Below the pieces are notes generated by a model. The model was not told the DNA's origin. It worked only from the letters and a program-made list of their open reading frames with translations, and searched no databases. The translations under genes and the position numbers were made by a program. DNA of 64,000 nucleotides from Methanobacteriota archaeon (GTDB lineage: Archaea > Thermoplasmatota > Poseidoniia > Poseidoniales > Thalassarchaeaceae), in the NCBI GenBank assembly GCA_016845365.1, contig JAERST010000013.1, positions 1-64,000 of the forward strand, given 5' to 3'. This document shows, piece after piece, positions 47,323-56,085 of the stretch (position 1 is its first letter; each line of letters starts with the position of its first letter).

Positions 47323-48039
47323 TCAGTGAGACCCGAGGAAGTATTCCCCAATTTCAGGGTCGGTCAGAATGTGTTGAGCATCACTCGTGTGAACCACCTT
47401 CCCGCTCGCCAAAATGTAGCCACGGTCAGAGCGAGCAAGGCTCAACCGAGCGTTCTGCTCGACGATTAAAACAGTAATTCCCTCCTCACGCAGAGCATCA
47501 ATCCGCTCGATGATTTGTTGCTGATATAGCGGAGACAGCGCCGCTGTTGGCTCATCTAAAAGCAAGAAAGTCGGATTGGAAATGAGCGCCCTCGAAATCG
47601 CCAACATCTGGCGCTCACCACCAGAAAGTGAAGCAGCCAAATCGTGGGTGCGATCGCGCAAATCTGGGAACATCTTCAGAGCGCGCTCGATGCGCTCATT
47701 CAGCACCTTAGTAGGCAATTTATTGCCACCCATCTGCAAATTTTCGTGCACAGTCAGCGAAGGGAAGACATTGTTCACCTGCGGAACGTAAGCGATGCCG
47801 CGGTTGACCAATTGGTCGGTTCGCCAGCCGGAGACGTCGTCCCCATCGTGCTCAACGGTTCCCGAGTAGTGGGTGGCGATGCCGAAAATCGTCTTGATGA
47901 AAGTGGATTTTCCGCAGCCGTTCGGGCCGATGATTGTCACGAATTCGCCCTTGTCGACGTAGAGGTCGATATCGTAGAGAATCTGCACAGAGCCGTAGCC
48001 GCCGTTCAATCCCTTGACCTCGAGGATGCGCTCGCTCAT
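47323..48039 (-). CDS. livF: Branched-chain amino-acid ABC transporter ATPase, LivF-like
   Basis: GPNGCGKST, SLSGGERQMLAISRAL, LLLDEPTAALSP. Confidence 0.92.
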   Translation of the reverse strand: MSERILEVKGLNGGYGSVQILYDIDLYVDKGEFVTIIGPNGCGKSTFIKTIFGIATHYSGTVEHDGDDVSGWRTDQLVNRGIAYVPQVNNVFPSLTVHENLQMGGNKLPTKVLNERIERALKMFPDLRDRTHDLAASLSGGERQMLAISRALISNPTFLLLDEPTAALSPLYQQQIIERIDALREEGITVLIVEQNARLSLARSDRGYILASGKVVHTSDAQHILTDPEIGEYFLGSH

Positions 48040-48845
48040 TCCTCCTCGCCCCCTTCGCCTTGGGCCTCGCCCTCATCGCCAGCCGCGCCCAGATAGGCCT
48101 CGATGACAGCACGATTGCTGCGAACCTCGTCCGGAGTGCCGACCATGAGGATTTCACCCTCGTTCATGACGACGATTCGGTCGACTCCTTGTCGAAGAAT
48201 GAAATCCATATTGTGTTCGATAATCAGAACCGAAATGCCCGTCTCATCGACAATCTTTCGAAGATTGTTGAATATCTTCATCGCCAGCGGACCGGCTACA
48301 CCCGCAACCGGCTCATCGAGAAGCAGAAGTTGCGGGTCACCCATCATCGAGCGGCCGATGTCAACGAGTTTCGACTGGCCACCAGAGAGTTCGCTGGCGA
48401 GATTGTGCGCCATGTGCGGAACTTCGAGCTGGTCCAGAACCTCGTAAGCACGTGCCAATCGGTCTTGCTCGGCGGGTCGAGAAAATGGTTGCAGAATCGC
48501 CTGTAGCGGATTCGGTTTGAATTGCTCGCGAGGCGGCACCAAGAGATTCTCGATGACCGTCATCTGCCGCCAGAGCCGAGTGTGCTGGAAAGTGCGTGTA
48601 AAGCCGAGATTCTGAATCTCGTCCGGCCGCATATCAGATGCATCCTCTCCGAAGACTTCGACACTTCCAGAGGTCTGCTGCAGCAATCCACTGATGCAAT
48701 TGAAAGTGGTTGATTTGCCGCATCCGTTCGGCCCGATCAAACCTACGAATTCACCCGGGCCGACCTCAAAAGAGACATCCTTTACAGCGACCAGCCCACC
48801 GAATTCCTTGCGAAGATTCTGAATCTTCAACACAGGTTCACTCAT
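48036..48845 (-). CDS. livG: Branched-chain amino-acid ABC transporter ATPase, LivG-like
   Basis: GPNGCGKSTTFNCISG, ELSGGQSKLVDIGRSMM, LLLDEPVAGV. Confidence 0.92.
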   Translation of the reverse strand: MSEPVLKIQNLRKEFGGLVAVKDVSFEVGPGEFVGLIGPNGCGKSTTFNCISGLLQQTSGSVEVFGEDASDMRPDEIQNLGFTRTFQHTRLWRQMTVIENLLVPPREQFKPNPLQAILQPFSRPAEQDRLARAYEVLDQLEVPHMAHNLASELSGGQSKLVDIGRSMMGDPQLLLLDEPVAGVAGPLAMKIFNNLRKIVDETGISVLIIEHNMDFILRQGVDRIVVMNEGEILMVGTPDEVRSNRAVIEAYLGAAGDEGEAQGEGGEEE

Positions 48846-51800
48846 TCGAATCACCTCCGGATGTCGAGTCCGACCGGGTAGGCCGGCTCGGAACTTCTGG
48901 CATCAAGCCCTTCGGATTGAACTTGAGAGAGAATAGAATCAGACAGCCGATTAGGAAGACCTTGACGTAGGCCATATCGGCTTGGAGTCCACCGATGAAA
49001 GCCTCGTCAATTGAGCGTTGGCCCATCATCAAGCCGGTGAAAGTGAAGGTGACAGCACCGGCTAATCCCACTTCTCTGAGCCCTGCCTTCCCGATTAACC
49101 AACCGAGTAAGCACAGAATGATGCAGAGGTTGACCACTTCCCACGAGTCGACAACTAGCCACTCAAACAGGCTATCGATACGCGCGGCCGTCGTGTGCAA
49201 GGGTAAGTCTGCAGAACCTTGGCCGGCGACTAGAACGTTGAAGACGAATTCCATCAGTACGATGATGAAGGCGCCGACGACCATTCCTCGGTTATTCGCG
49301 GCTCCACCAACGATGAAAGCAGCCCAAACGAGGAATGTCGACCTTGCTGGCATCATATGGTTGGGCTGGAATCCTGTAAGCTTCCAAGCCCAGAGTGCCC
49401 CTGCGAAGGCGGCGATTGCCGCGCCGAGAGCGAGGCTCGCCGCCTTGTGAGTCAAGACATCGTGTCCGTGGTGTTGAGCGACTTCTTCGTCCTCGCGGAT
49501 GGCTCGCAGAATGCGACCCCATGGTGAGGCGAGCACCGTGTCGAGAAGCCACCAAATCAGAACGGTTGCGACGATTCCGATTATGGCTAGCAGGAGCATG
49601 TAAGGAGCTGGCTCACCCAAATTCAGCAAGTCGCCAACCGAAGCCGCGGGACTTGACAAATCCACTACATCGCGGCAATCTGCCGGTTCCATCTTCGAGA
49701 TGATATCATCCGCAGTCCCCAAAGTGGCATCCGGTCCAGCCAAAGGCGCCTTATTCGGAACATCGGAACCGCAGAACCACCATGATTCACCCGGCAGAGT
49801 ATACCGTGAGATTCCAATCGAGGAACCCCAAGAACCAGCGCGTAGCAAGGGTTCACCAGCAAGCAATACGCGTACGATTTCACCGAGTGAAATCGTCACG
49901 ATTGCGAAGTAATCCATCCGCAATCGAGCGGTTGGATAAGCCAGCAGCCAGCCGGCGAGAGCGGCGATGAGGACAGCCGCTATCGTCGCCGGAATCACGG
50001 GCCAATCGTAGCCGTGTAATTCAGAGGGAGCGCTCAGAATCCCCACGACGATTGACCCGATACCAACAAAGAATATCACACCAAAATTCACCATTCCCGT
50101 GACACCGGTGTGGAGGTTTAGTGAGAAGGCCATGAGGGCGAAAATAGCCAGTGTGACCAGCACGTTTGAGACTTGTAGGACCTTGATGAAGCGCATTCCA
50201 TCCTGTTCTGCGACCGGCAACCAAGCCAAGAATAACAGCAAAATGAACATCATTACACTGAACATAATCCACGAGCCCTTCGGACTCTCACGCCCGTACA
50301 ATGCAAGGTGATCTGTGCCGCTAGACTCCGGTCGAACTCGCGAAATCAATGGAGAAATCTGCTCTGAAATTTGCACAGTGAATCCATCGATCTGCGCAGA
50401 GACCCTCGTTGGAATTGTGTTGAGTTTGACAGCGAGTTGATTCAAGGAAGTCGAGAGATTTCCAAAGCCCGGGCTCGCGCTCGCTGTTACGTCTTCAATC
50501 ATCGAAGTTATTCGGCGAAGTGGGTCTTCATCACGCCCCTTCAGCAGATTGATTCCCTCGACAATTGCGATGAGCCACACCAAGATTGGTAATGCTGGCC
50601 AAATCACATCTCCGAGGGTGCCAATGATATCGAGTAAGGCCAGCTCGCTTGACATCAAGTCAAACCAAGTCTGATTCATGAAATCGAGATGTTCTGCCGT
50701 CCAGCTCTCGTGCAGATATGGGGCTACGTCGCTGGGCGGCGAATCGATATTCGATTCTGTGAACGGGGCATCGGCCAGAGTGAGTGAGCCATCGCTTCTG
50801 CCCGTAACCAATTCGAGATTGGTTGCGATGCCTTCTGAGTCTTGGCAGGTTTGCGAGCAGGCGCCCTCAGAGAATGAGTTCGCGCCGATGAATTGTGAGA
50901 TTCTGTGGAATACGTAAGCACCAATCGTCGCTATCAGCATCGATTGACCACGAGCCTCTTTGCGCTGCTGGAAATTGTGTAGACCCAATGCACCGGTTGG
51001 CAGAATCGCAAGGATTCCTCCTGTCTTCTTGTTCGGTGCCCGGTCTTGCTCAGCGCGTTTTCTGAGTCGGTCGACCTTCCATTTCTCATAGGCATCGCCG
51101 ATTCCCTCGGGCATAATCATCAGGATAGCGATGAGGAAAATGTAGGGCATTACTCCGTCGAGTGCTGTGTAATTTGAGCGCCCGAGTGGTTGTCCTATAC
51201 CGATTAGGACGGGGGATGAAAGGGCGCGAACAAAACCGACGATTAGCGAGCCGATTATCGCTCCGGGAATTGAGCCAATGGTTCCGAGGACGATTACTGC
51301 GAACGATGGAAGAAGGAGTGTGAAGGCCGTTTCAGGCGTGAAGCGGAGCGTCATCGCGAAGATGGCCCCACCCATCCCAGAAAGGCCGGCCGAGAGGAAG
51401 GCGCTGGTCATTTGCACCCTCTCGACGTTGATACCGCTGGATGCGGCAAGGTCTGGGTTGTCGGCAACAGCGCGCATGCGGCGGCCGAGGCGAGTCTTGT
51501 TGAGGAGAATCAGAAGGAGAATTACCGAGATGAAGATCACAACCGGCATGGCACCCTTGTAGTAGGCATAGCCGGTTGTGGCTTGGTCGACACAATTTGT
51601 CGCCAAATCATAGGTCTCGAAGAGTGGTTTGCTTCCTTCGACGACAATCCTCTCGCCGCCCTCAGCATCGCAAGAATTCAGAGTATAGGTCGAGCCTTCC
51701 TCGATACTGCGGTCGCCGAGGTAGAGGCGAAGTTTGGTTGTTGGAATGTCCCACCGCAGGGAAGGTACGCGCCAATCTGCATCTGGCTCGAACATATTCT

Positions 51801-52554
51801 TGCCTGCACCAAATCGAAGGTAGACGAGTGCGCGCAAAATCAGTGCCACACCCAGCGATGCGATCATCATCACCTGAGGTGAAGCATCGCGCTCGCGGAA
51901 TCCGCGATAGACCAAACGATCGATGACAATGCCAGCGATTCCAGTCAGTACAAAGGCGCCTAAGACTGTCCACAAGAGGAGAGACCAGACGATTACACCG
52001 TCTCTAGGAGCAGCGGCAAGTGGGTAGAAATGATCTACCCAAACCATCACCATTGCCAAATACATACCAATCATGAAGAATTCAGATTGGGCAAAATTTC
52101 CGTAACGCTGGACCTTGTAGGTCAGGGTTAATCCGACGGCTATCGCAAGATATGTCGTCGACCAAGTTAGCGTTCCGACTCCAACCGATACTAGGTCGAG
52201 GGTAATGATTGCATCATCGGCCATTCCCTTGAACAAGAGGTCCAAGGTTAACCAGACAATGAATAAGAGAAAAAGTGGAGAACAAGCGATTCCGATAGAA
52301 CGGGCGGTGCTTTCTGGGACATCATCGAAGAGGATTTTGATCAGCATAAATCCGCCTGAGATAGCCACGACGGTTTGCAATAACCATACCATATCATTCG
52401 GAATTCCTCCCCCGAGGATAGCGTCACTGTGATTGAGTAGACCGAAGCCGTATCTCAAGCCCAGCCAAGCATCGAAGATGATGATTAGCGAAATCACCAG
52501 GCGCTGGCGGCCACGGTCAAGGGATTTCCAGCCGGAAGTCACAGATTCAATCAT
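48838..52554 (-). CDS. Fused LivH-LivM branched-chain amino-acid ABC permease
   Basis: 1238 aa; LivH-type SQ(S)EFFMIGMYLAM...AVADNPDLAASSGINVERVQ followed by LivM-type LNLHTGVTGMVNFGVIFFVGIG...RAIREDEEVAQHHGHDVLTHK. Confidence 0.88.
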   Translation of the reverse strand: MIESVTSGWKSLDRGRQRLVISLIIIFDAWLGLRYGFGLLNHSDAILGGGIPNDMVWLLQTVVAISGGFMLIKILFDDVPESTARSIGIACSPLFLLFIVWLTLDLLFKGMADDAIITLDLVSVGVGTLTWSTTYLAIAVGLTLTYKVQRYGNFAQSEFFMIGMYLAMVMVWVDHFYPLAAAPRDGVIVWSLLLWTVLGAFVLTGIAGIVIDRLVYRGFRERDASPQVMMIASLGVALILRALVYLRFGAGKNMFEPDADWRVPSLRWDIPTTKLRLYLGDRSIEEGSTYTLNSCDAEGGERIVVEGSKPLFETYDLATNCVDQATTGYAYYKGAMPVVIFISVILLLILLNKTRLGRRMRAVADNPDLAASSGINVERVQMTSAFLSAGLSGMGGAIFAMTLRFTPETAFTLLLPSFAVIVLGTIGSIPGAIIGSLIVGFVRALSSPVLIGIGQPLGRSNYTALDGVMPYIFLIAILMIMPEGIGDAYEKWKVDRLRKRAEQDRAPNKKTGGILAILPTGALGLHNFQQRKEARGQSMLIATIGAYVFHRISQFIGANSFSEGACSQTCQDSEGIATNLELVTGRSDGSLTLADAPFTESNIDSPPSDVAPYLHESWTAEHLDFMNQTWFDLMSSELALLDIIGTLGDVIWPALPILVWLIAIVEGINLLKGRDEDPLRRITSMIEDVTASASPGFGNLSTSLNQLAVKLNTIPTRVSAQIDGFTVQISEQISPLISRVRPESSGTDHLALYGRESPKGSWIMFSVMMFILLLFLAWLPVAEQDGMRFIKVLQVSNVLVTLAIFALMAFSLNLHTGVTGMVNFGVIFFVGIGSIVVGILSAPSELHGYDWPVIPATIAAVLIAALAGWLLAYPTARLRMDYFAIVTISLGEIVRVLLAGEPLLRAGSWGSSIGISRYTLPGESWWFCGSDVPNKAPLAGPDATLGTADDIISKMEPADCRDVVDLSSPAASVGDLLNLGEPAPYMLLLAIIGIVATVLIWWLLDTVLASPWGRILRAIREDEEVAQHHGHDVLTHKAASLALGAAIAAFAGALWAWKLTGFQPNHMMPARSTFLVWAAFIVGGAANNRGMVVGAFIIVLMEFVFNVLVAGQGSADLPLHTTAARIDSLFEWLVVDSWEVVNLCIILCLLGWLIGKAGLREVGLAGAVTFTFTGLMMGQRSIDEAFIGGLQADMAYVKVFLIGCLILFSLKFNPKGLMPEVPSRPTRSDSTSGGDSNE

Positions 52555-52618
52555 CTGGCACACCGTCGGGAAAAAGGAATCAGTTTCAACTCTGCAGTTT
52601 CAAAAATAGGGTTGGGGG

Positions 52619-52681: not shown

Positions 52682-55600
52682 TCACGCGTTCGTTACGCCG
52701 CCGTCGCGTGACCAGAAGCGGTCACAATCGAACGACACGGCACCATCATCGGCGACGTTGAACGTACCGACGCAGTATCCGTTACCAGCGACATCACCAA
52801 CAGCATCGAAGCTGTGGACACCAGAGGCGCCCACGAAGCCTTGACCTACAGCCGAGATGAGAGCGCTCAGAGGGGTTCCCTCTGGGCTCGAAGCCAATGC
52901 GAACACCGAGTAACCGATGATGATCATGGCGTCGAATGCCTCTGCGGTGTAGATTCCACCAGCGCAGTCAGGCACAGCGCCGCAAGCCGCGGCGAATGCC
53001 ATCGAGCGCTCGTTTGGTGTTGCTGATGCTGGCTTGGTAGCCACCGCACCGTCTAGCAGAGAACTGTCTGCCATGTCGGCTGCGATTCCTTCCTCAGCGA
53101 CTCCGTCGCCACCGTAGATAGCTCCGGAGAAGCCCTGAGCACCGAGTTCCTCGATGATTGCGGCTCCATCACTCGCGTACGAGATCAGCATGACGCTGTC
53201 GCAGCCACCGTCGACAACAGACTGCACCTGTGAGGTGAAGTCAGTCTCGGTGTCTGCGTATCCGACCTTCGTGCAAAGTGCGTTACCTGCATCTGTCCAA
53301 GCAGCCTCGAAGGAGTCTGCAAGACCAGAACCGTAGTCGTTGGTCATGTAGAGCAGTGCAATGTTGCTGTGGCCACCGGCGGTGACAACATCAGCGAGTG
53401 CAGGTCCCTGAATCGCATCGCTTGGCACGACACGGAAGAACAGCGGGTATGCCGAGGCATCGCTGAGTCCAGGGTTAGTGCTCGCGTACGAAATCATTGG
53501 GATTCCAGCAGCCGATAGGACTGCGTTTGCACCCATGGTTGCACCAGAGCAGGCTGCTCCAGCAACTGCGACTACACCGGCGTCGATCAGAGTCTGAGCG
53601 CCGGTAGCAGCGACGGTTCCGTCACAGCCCGAGTCAGCGAATACCAACTCGAACTGTAGGCCTGAGCCCCATCCTGCAACGTTCATCATCTGAAGAGCGA
53701 TTCCTGCAGCAGCTGCGAATCCTGGCGCGTAAACAGCGATAGGACCGGTTGCTGGATTTAGGAATCCGATCTTGACCGTCTGGCCGGTGAAATCGCTTGC
53801 AGCGACTCCACCGTCACGGGTCCAGTGTGCTCGGCAGCTGAAGAAGACATCAGTGCTCGACAGAGCGTCGAAGCGGCAGATATCGTATCCTGCTCCTGCG
53901 ACGTCTCCGCTCTCATCGAAAGTGTGAGATCCGGATGCGCCTTCGTAGTCGGTTCCGACCATGCCAAGGTGGGAAGCCATGTTAGCTCCCTCTTCCATCA
54001 TTGCAGCCTTACCGATCATCATGACCGCATCGTAAGTCTCTGCAGTGTAGATTCCACCAGCACAGGTCTCGTCAGCAGCGCAGCGCTCACCGAAGTCACC
54101 AGCACCGGCTACGGCGCGTGGCTTGGTGGCCTGGACGCCGTTTGCAGCACCAGGTGCGCTGAAGTCGTCGAGGAAGCCGGCGTCAGCGATTCCATCCGCG
54201 CCGAATGTTGGCAAGGATAGGCCGACGTAGGCCATTGTCTCGAGGATTGCAGCACCGTCGGTTGCGTAGGTGACCATCACGACGGAGCCACAGCCCGCGT
54301 CAGCGATTGCTTGGACCTCAGCAGCGAAGTCGGTCTGAGTGTCCTCGTAACCGATCTTTGTGCAAAGGTTGTCCGATCCCCATGCGCCCTCAAAGGCGTC
54401 TGCTAGACCAGAACCGTAGTCGTTGGTCATGTGCAGAAGTGCCGGGTTTGATGCACCAGCTGCTGTTACCATTGCGGCGATTGCAGGACCCTGGATTGCG
54501 TCGCTTGGAACGACGCGATAGAAGCCTGGGTAAGCCGAGGCGTCAGAGAGACCAGGGTTTGTGCTGGCGTATGATACCTGCACGATTCCAGCCTCGCTGA
54601 GGACAGCGTTTGCACCCATTGAGGCACCAGAGCACGCGGCTCCAGCGACACCGACAACGCCGGCGTCAACAAGGGTCTGTGCGGCTCCGCTTGCGACGGT
54701 TCCGTCACAGCCGGAGTCTGCCTCGACGAGTTCGAAGTCGCCGCCCATTGCGTTCAGGTCAGCGATTGCCATGTTGGCAGCTGCTGTGAACGGTGGTGCG
54801 TAAACTGCGATTGGTCCAGTCAATGGATTTAGTAGACCGATCTTCATCGACTCTACTGGCTCTTCTGGAGCCTCAAACATTGGGTTATCGTTACCCATGT
54901 AGTGAGCAGCGATCTCATCGACGAGCGCGTTAGCGACGTCGACATCGAATCCGACAGCGTTACCATCTTCGTCAATGCTCTCGAACGGCGGGTAAGCCGT
55001 GTCCGAGCAGAGCTTGAGCGAACCGGACTCGAGAACCGCTGAGAGGGTTGATCCCTCGCTCGGGCTCGGGTAAGCGGTTGCAGTGTTGTCGTCGCGGTCA
55101 TCTGTTAGGACAACAGCGCCATCGAACCAAGCACCGAAGATAGCGTCGTACTCGCCGGAGTCGACAATCGCGGTGATTGCGACGTTGAGGGCATCGAGCA
55201 ATTCGCCCGAGTCCTCGCGGACAGCGAGTCCGAAGGTCTCATCCGAAAATGTCGTCAATAGGTCACCGGACAATGCCAGCACGGGCGAATCGCCCATAGC
55301 GTAGTCCGCCTCACCATTTCCAACAGCCGCTACGACCGAGGGGAAGTCAGCGTATGCGACGATTGTCGCGTCACCGAGGTTATCCTGGGCGTAGAGATCG
55401 GAGGTCGTTCCGGATTGAACAGCGACGGTTGTACCAGCCGCATTCAGTTCCGAGACGTCCGAGATAGCTGCAGCACCAGCCGCACCGATTACACCCTGGC
55501 TACTCGTGTAGTAACCGCGGGTGAAGTCGACGACTTGGTCGCGCTCCTCCGTCTTCGTCATCGCCGAGATGATGGCATCGCACATCTCGCCGCCGTTCAA

Positions 55601-55771
55601 GTTGGGAATAATCGGATCCCAATCAGACGTAACAAAGTCTGCCGACACATCGTCGGCTGGACTCAGTTCCCACGTCTCTTCAGGTTCCACTTCCCCGCCC
55701 AGACATCCTGCGAACGCAGCCGCAAGCATGCTGAGCGTCATCAGCATTGCAGTCATTTTCTTGTCTAACAT
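52682..55771 (-). CDS. Multi-domain ABC substrate-binding lipoprotein: permuted SBP_bac_3-like domain plus two LivK-like (Peripla_BP_6) domains
   Basis: Lipobox LAAAFAGC; DFVTSDWDPIIPNLNGGEMCDAIISAMTKTEERDQVVDFT precedes LKLCSDTAYPPFESIDEDGNAVGFDVDVANAL; then KIGLLNPLTGPIAVYAP and KIGFLNPATGPIAVYAP duplicate domains. Confidence 0.85.
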   Translation of the reverse strand: MLDKKMTAMLMTLSMLAAAFAGCLGGEVEPEETWELSPADDVSADFVTSDWDPIIPNLNGGEMCDAIISAMTKTEERDQVVDFTRGYYTSSQGVIGAAGAAAISDVSELNAAGTTVAVQSGTTSDLYAQDNLGDATIVAYADFPSVVAAVGNGEADYAMGDSPVLALSGDLLTTFSDETFGLAVREDSGELLDALNVAITAIVDSGEYDAIFGAWFDGAVVLTDDRDDNTATAYPSPSEGSTLSAVLESGSLKLCSDTAYPPFESIDEDGNAVGFDVDVANALVDEIAAHYMGNDNPMFEAPEEPVESMKIGLLNPLTGPIAVYAPPFTAAANMAIADLNAMGGDFELVEADSGCDGTVASGAAQTLVDAGVVGVAGAACSGASMGANAVLSEAGIVQVSYASTNPGLSDASAYPGFYRVVPSDAIQGPAIAAMVTAAGASNPALLHMTNDYGSGLADAFEGAWGSDNLCTKIGYEDTQTDFAAEVQAIADAGCGSVVMVTYATDGAAILETMAYVGLSLPTFGADGIADAGFLDDFSAPGAANGVQATKPRAVAGAGDFGERCAADETCAGGIYTAETYDAVMMIGKAAMMEEGANMASHLGMVGTDYEGASGSHTFDESGDVAGAGYDICRFDALSSTDVFFSCRAHWTRDGGVAASDFTGQTVKIGFLNPATGPIAVYAPGFAAAAGIALQMMNVAGWGSGLQFELVFADSGCDGTVAATGAQTLIDAGVVAVAGAACSGATMGANAVLSAAGIPMISYASTNPGLSDASAYPLFFRVVPSDAIQGPALADVVTAGGHSNIALLYMTNDYGSGLADSFEAAWTDAGNALCTKVGYADTETDFTSQVQSVVDGGCDSVMLISYASDGAAIIEELGAQGFSGAIYGGDGVAEEGIAADMADSSLLDGAVATKPASATPNERSMAFAAACGAVPDCAGGIYTAEAFDAMIIIGYSVFALASSPEGTPLSALISAVGQGFVGASGVHSFDAVGDVAGNGYCVGTFNVADDGAVSFDCDRFWSRDGGVTNA

Positions 55772-56085
55772 GGCGTATCTCACGCTCCTTAGCCCTCGTA
55801 CGACATTTCCTATTTGTTATAGAAGTTCGCAATATTGTTCCAGAAAACACCGTTTCGGTATGTTGGTGAAATGGAATCCTGAATGATTGGAAACTGAGGT
55901 AATGCGCGGATATGATTCCCTTTTGTGATAATTTTCTTCCATATTTCTACAAATTCTAGAAAATGGCGCATCGGAAATTCCCCACGAAGTGGATTTTTTA
56001 GAAATCCGAATTTTTCGTGAGTTTTGAGAAGGGGGCCTCAAACTCTTTGCTAGTTTTTTTCTGAGTTTGAGCAGCCGATTGAATC

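Follow-up and report, generated by a model that had tools for sequence, protein, structure and literature searches.

The window, by which we mean the whole 64,000-nucleotide stretch of DNA that was analysed, carries an open reading frame of 1033 aa (52682..55783) for a lipoprotein, with the minus strand as the coding strand. Translation probably begins at an internal ATG at 55771, the point from which homologues align, and the stop lies at 52682. An earlier note on this DNA had given 55771 as the end coordinate, which coincides with this ATG. Counted in the 1033-aa frame, the lipidated Cys of the lipobox is residue 27. It is followed by the C-part of a family-3 substrate-binding domain (SBP_bac_3), a linker, the N-part of SBP_bac_3 and two Peripla_BP_6 domains (Table 1). 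In Pfam, SBP_bac_3 appears split into two swapped pieces ahead of two Peripla_BP_6/ANF_receptor domains, and the claim of the earlier note that two fold classes are joined in one lipoprotein is borne out by these assignments. The note had also called the Peripla_BP_6 pair highly similar. The two copies are indeed related, with 56% amino-acid identity and up to ~86% identity over short DNA stretches, but they are far from near-identical and share no near-identical DNA.

Table 1. Lipoprotein gene and Liv operon: features, with coordinates in the window.
Feature	Coordinates	Strand	Evidence
Signal peptide and lipobox MLDKKMTAMLMTLSMLAAAFAGC	55703..55771	-	sequence; conserved at homologue N-termini
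Permuted SBP_bac_3, segments C1+C2, aa 46-221	55121..55648	-	Pfam profile 38-131; AncCDT-1 61-246; segment models; invariance
Linker from native C-terminus to native N-terminus, DGAVVLTDDRDDNTATAYPSP..., aa 222-242	55058..55120	-	conserved in homologues; homologous to the linker of family f3
Permuted SBP_bac_3, segment N, aa 243-298	54890..55057	-	Pfam profile 1-37; AncCDT-1 12-60; strand and helix in the model
First Peripla_BP_6 (LivK-type) domain, aa 313-662	53798..54847	-	Pfam; 56% identical to second copy
Second Peripla_BP_6 (LivK-type) domain, aa 669-1033	52685..53779	-	Pfam; 56% identical to first copy
Fused LivH-LivM permease, 1241 aa, two BPD_transp_2 stretches	48838..52563	-	conserved 3' of the SBP gene in related genomes
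LivG ATPase	48036..48854	-	Pfam ABC_tran and BCA_ABC_TP_C; synteny
LivF ATPase	47323..48039	-	Pfam ABC_tran; synteny

The lipoprotein gene opens an operon in which LivHM, LivG and LivF follow on the same strand. As the earlier note had proposed, a Liv transporter thus adjoins the gene, and this neighbourhood is kept in related genomes. The Peripla_BP_6 domains are encoded beside LivHMGF, as is expected of a LivK-type binding protein. The LivH-LivM fusion contains a long region between its halves and is likewise kept in related genomes. A sister family (f2) has a Liv lipoprotein that lacks the permuted domain, and therefore this domain was added to a system that already existed. In Thalassarchaeaceae, livK, co-located with the full transporter, is reported to be among the most transcribed genes (PMC9723583). 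It is likely that this livK and the gene for the permuted-domain lipoprotein are the same.

Fold and binding pocket of the permuted domain

Sixty-seven homologues were combined into a profile (A1), which was aligned against the PDB. With AncCDT-1 (5t0w), an SBP of solved structure, chain residues 12-60 matched domain residues 204-252, and chain residues 61-246 matched domain residues 6-182. The two SBP_bac_3 parts tile AncCDT-1 exactly, with no overlap and no gap, and the cut point falls between alpha1 and beta2. Segments C1+C2 correspond to beta2 through the C-terminus of an ordinary SBP_bac_3 domain, segment N to the native beta1-alpha1. Jointly, the two stretches cover positions 1-131 of the 132 in Pfam profile PF00497, above the curated cut-off. 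For A1, AlphaFold2 predicted one compact domain (pLDDT 91.5, pTM 0.86), in which the moved beta1-alpha1 segment mostly has pLDDT values of 92-97. The best Foldseek match of the model was AncCDT-1, with an rmsd of 1.7 over 179 columns that comprise the sequential part only. A single two-lobed closed fold is thus predicted by AlphaFold2 and by the Foldseek match. Judged from pTM, tiling and conservation, the moved segment would occupy its native place.

To read the order of the parts, the domain was cut into three segment models, N, C1 and C2. The canonical order is N-C1-C2, whereas the order observed here is C1-C2-N, and the domain is therefore filed as a circular permutant and not as an ordinary SBP_bac_3 member. 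Homologues in the parent order exist (L073, L074 and Thermoplasmatota outgroups), as is expected of a natural circular permutant whose parts tile the parent. The tiling, the AlphaFold2 model, the order kept in 84 genomes and the canonical-order relatives all support a single, circularly permuted domain. The earlier note had described swapped N- and C-parts that together make about one complete domain, and had suggested structure prediction as a check. The swap is seen in the order of the Pfam pieces and recurs in 71 distinct homologues, the exact tiling and the profile coverage agree with one complete domain, and the predicted structure is a compact permuted domain.

Eight residues, W55, S73, T76, R81, T126, D165, D261 and Y264 (domain positions 16, 34, 37, 42, 87, 126, 222 and 225), are invariant in the 67 sequences. 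We take them to correspond to amino-acid-binding residues of the LAO- and Gln-binding proteins, presumably the Asp and Tyr after beta1, the aromatic residue in DWD, the Ser/Thr and Arg in SxMTxxxxR, the Thr in GTT and the Asp in lobe II. Two of the eight, D261 and Y264, belong to the moved segment N, and the other six are found in C1+C2. The pocket residues expected of an amino-acid-binding member of the family are thus present and invariant. Cys68 in C1+C2 and Cys259 in segment N are also invariant in the 67 sequences, and a disulfide between them is plausible. We also considered whether the Cys pair might be a staple that only the permuted form needs. This idea is not supported, as the pair is present in the canonical-order proteins L073 and L074 and both Cys are absent from the permuted proteins of family f3.

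Conservation of the arrangement

The permuted domain was found in 84 of 149 Thalassarchaeaceae genomes, covering 8 of 11 genera, and many of the genomes that lack it are incomplete. Named carriers are Ca. Thalassarchaeaceae, Ca. Thalassarchaeum and MGII. All 71 distinct full copies that were recovered show the permuted arrangement, at 55-90% identity. In comparisons with unsaturated synonymous sites, dN/dS is ~0.02-0.22 in the permuted parts. In two comparisons within one genus (L006, L010), pN is ~0.06 in the permuted C-part versus ~0.27 in the LivK domains. The far higher divergence of the LivK domains between the window (52685-54847) and these two copies suggests exchange of LivK cassettes. 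In L079/L143 (G133:C38), ~300 extra N-terminal residues precede the permuted domain, and this extension contains a zinc-ribbon-like motif, a TM helix and Asp-rich TSP3-like repeats.

Two explanations raised in the earlier note would make the arrangement a by-product and not a domain in its own right. According to one, an assembly artefact or a collapsed tandem repeat produced it, and the genome assembly is indeed 84% complete and made up of 26 contigs. However, the homologue search that the note had suggested recovered the identical order in many independently assembled genomes. A collapsed repeat is also unlikely because the LivK copies, although related, are only 56% identical and far from near-identical. 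Since independent genomes share the order, purifying selection acts on the permuted parts and the LivK copies have diverged, the artefact explanations are rejected and we regard their probability as negligible. According to the other, the pieces are two unrelated partial SBP_bac_3 remnants that recombination left behind and that do not combine into a domain, which would fit the wrong order of the two Pfam pieces. Against this, the pieces cover the parent with nothing missing and nothing doubled, AlphaFold2 models them as one domain, and the arrangement is kept across 8 genera under purifying selection. Remnants of this kind are thus contradicted and very improbable. The arrangement is a conserved natural rearrangement, not an error.

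Three cyclic orders and the origin of the permutation

The segment-order survey covered the Thermoplasmatota. Within the class, which comprises Marine Group II and related archaea, the segment models revealed all three cyclic orders, C1-C2-N, C2-N-C1 and N-C1-C2. The order C1-C2-N is that of the Liv lipoproteins. The canonical order N-C1-C2 occurs in the Thermoplasmatota outgroups and in two long surface proteins of Thalassarchaeaceae, L073 (G081:C19) and L074 (G150:C3), which are ~55-61% identical to the permuted domain; these two proteins also carry Cys-rich CDxGExIPxxWxxDGxxDCxDGSDE repeats. In the phylum search outside the class, N stood before C in 19 of the 19 genomes with both pieces listed, as read by us from the coordinates. 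The third order, C2-N-C1, is that of standalone proteins of 320-350 aa with a signal peptide and a C-terminal membrane anchor. It is strong in family f3 (E about 1e-55; L200, L201, L202, L211 and L213) and divergent in Thalassarchaeaceae, where nine proteins of 325-345 aa (L075-L078 and L119-L123) combine it with a C-terminal TM helix and the Cys pair. The f3 genes adjoin, in divergent orientation, a gene with an N-terminal repeat region and a segment that we read as permease-like. AlphaFold2 modelled the f3 form with a pLDDT of 80.6 and a pTM of 0.76. Foldseek gave poor superpositions with a lobe-swapped look (rmsd 6-16), which are weak evidence but are as expected because a two-lobed fold is half-rotated in this order.

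The linker is homologous between the lipoprotein and f3 (VVLTDDRDDNTATAYP / VVLTDDTNANTATEYP). Most pairs give z values of ~8-13 with no shuffle scoring as high, and the match is weaker for the divergent L015. Homologous linkers in both permuted forms point to one tandem-duplication ancestor. The simplest and most likely account would be that an ancestor carried the domain in duplicate, as [SBP]-linker-[SBP], and that separate lineages later trimmed it back to different positions. Alternatively, the two permuted forms might have arisen independently from canonical SBPs, with the similar linker being convergent or copied. The different cut points of the two forms would fit such separate origins, as would the linker in the 330-aa proteins of family f1, which for the most part does not resemble the lipoprotein linker. 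The f3 match far above all shuffles in most pairs argues against them, as does the ~50% identity between the lipoprotein and f3 domains, which runs straight through the junction, and we consider independent origins rather unlikely. Among the tandem arrays examined in the phylum, no intact [SBP]-linker-[SBP] intermediate with the shared linker was found. Family f17 of the phylum does have single ORFs (L239, L240, L241) with at least two tandem SBP_bac_3 domains in canonical order. In trees, f3 branches outside the group of lipoproteins, and the canonical pair from Thalassarchaeaceae falls beside or within that group. With long branches present, the AU test gave p 0.20 for monophyly of the lipoprotein rows and p 0.038 against a clade of lipoprotein and f3 without the canonical copies. 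It is conceivable, though we hold this only tentatively, that all three cyclic orders descend from a single tandem duplication and that the canonical Thalassarchaeaceae copies were secondarily re-created from a permuted ancestor.

Putative function and relation to known systems

Taken as a whole, the protein is quite probably a three-domain, amino-acid-capturing Liv lipoprotein of Ca. Thalassarchaeaceae (Marine Group IIb) whose membrane-proximal domain is a family-3 circular permutant of tandem origin. This explanation builds on computed domain order, tiling, fold, conservation, pocket, operon and junction homology, from which we infer binding, transport and the tandem intermediate. The native termini would be joined by the ~20-residue linker and the new termini would open between alpha1 and beta2, so that the permuted type II, family-3 (polar amino acid) domain would fold as one closed two-lobed clamp, probably with an alpha-amino acid as its ligand. 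Branched-chain or other amino acids would be the ligands of the two LivK domains, which would dock on LivHM, with transport presumably driven by LivFG. By analogy with GlnPQ, the permuted domain is most likely an extra amino-acid capture domain on the Liv importer, and the fusion may widen the substrate range or raise the local ligand concentration at the importer. Delivery from the permuted domain to LivHM is uncertain because family-3 domains normally serve HisM-type permeases, and we know of no family-3 domain that docks on LivHM. This gap in family knowledge would suit a different role, in which the domain is a real fold that acts as a spacer, ligand reservoir or sensor near the membrane while the importer relies on the LivK domains alone. 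The Liv operon of the sister family, which does without the permuted domain, would suit it as well, as would related domains in long surface proteins without transporter fusion. On the other hand, all eight pocket positions are invariant in the 67 homologues, and in some comparisons selection constrains the permuted domain more strongly than the LivK domains. Such a role is possible, but it seems to us unlikely compared with amino-acid capture.

The permuted domain resembles family-3 SBPs (PF00497; LAO-, Gln- and Arg-binding proteins, AncCDT-1) in sequence, predicted fold and pocket residues. It differs from them in that beta1-alpha1 stands behind the C-terminus, in the fusion to LivK domains and in the conserved Cys pair. 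Like LivK/LivJ, the lipoprotein has Peripla_BP_6 domains, two in number, and belongs to a LivHM-LivG-LivF operon; unlike in LivK/LivJ, the domain is duplicated and a permuted family-3 domain is added at the N-terminus. We know of no earlier description of an ABC-importer binding domain that is circularly permuted in nature and conserved in this form. GlnPQ (6h30; PMC8025302) also has several binding domains per chain and one importer, and its tandem domains may widen the substrate range or raise the local ligand concentration. However, in GlnPQ these domains are canonical, belong to a single class and share a chain with the permease, whereas here one domain is permuted, two fold classes are combined and the carrier is a lipoprotein. 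The open-access literature searched yielded engineered permutants of binding proteins but no natural one among ABC-importer domains. The engineered ones include permuted halves of ribose-binding protein (PMC9815098) and sensor modules cited in PMC3454389. These permutants show that binding-protein folds tolerate rearranged connectivity, but they are laboratory constructs, whereas the permutant in the lipoprotein is natural and conserved across genera.

Our data support the main interpretation of the earlier note, and the finding is broader than the note had stated. The rearrangement is hidden by standard domain annotation. The permuted domain sits in a protein family (livK) that is reported to be among the most highly transcribed in an abundant ocean archaeal group. 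With three rotations, a homologous linker and canonical relatives, these proteins form a natural series for testing the evolution of circular permutation, and the series also suits testing how the termini of a binding domain relate to docking and lobe closure.
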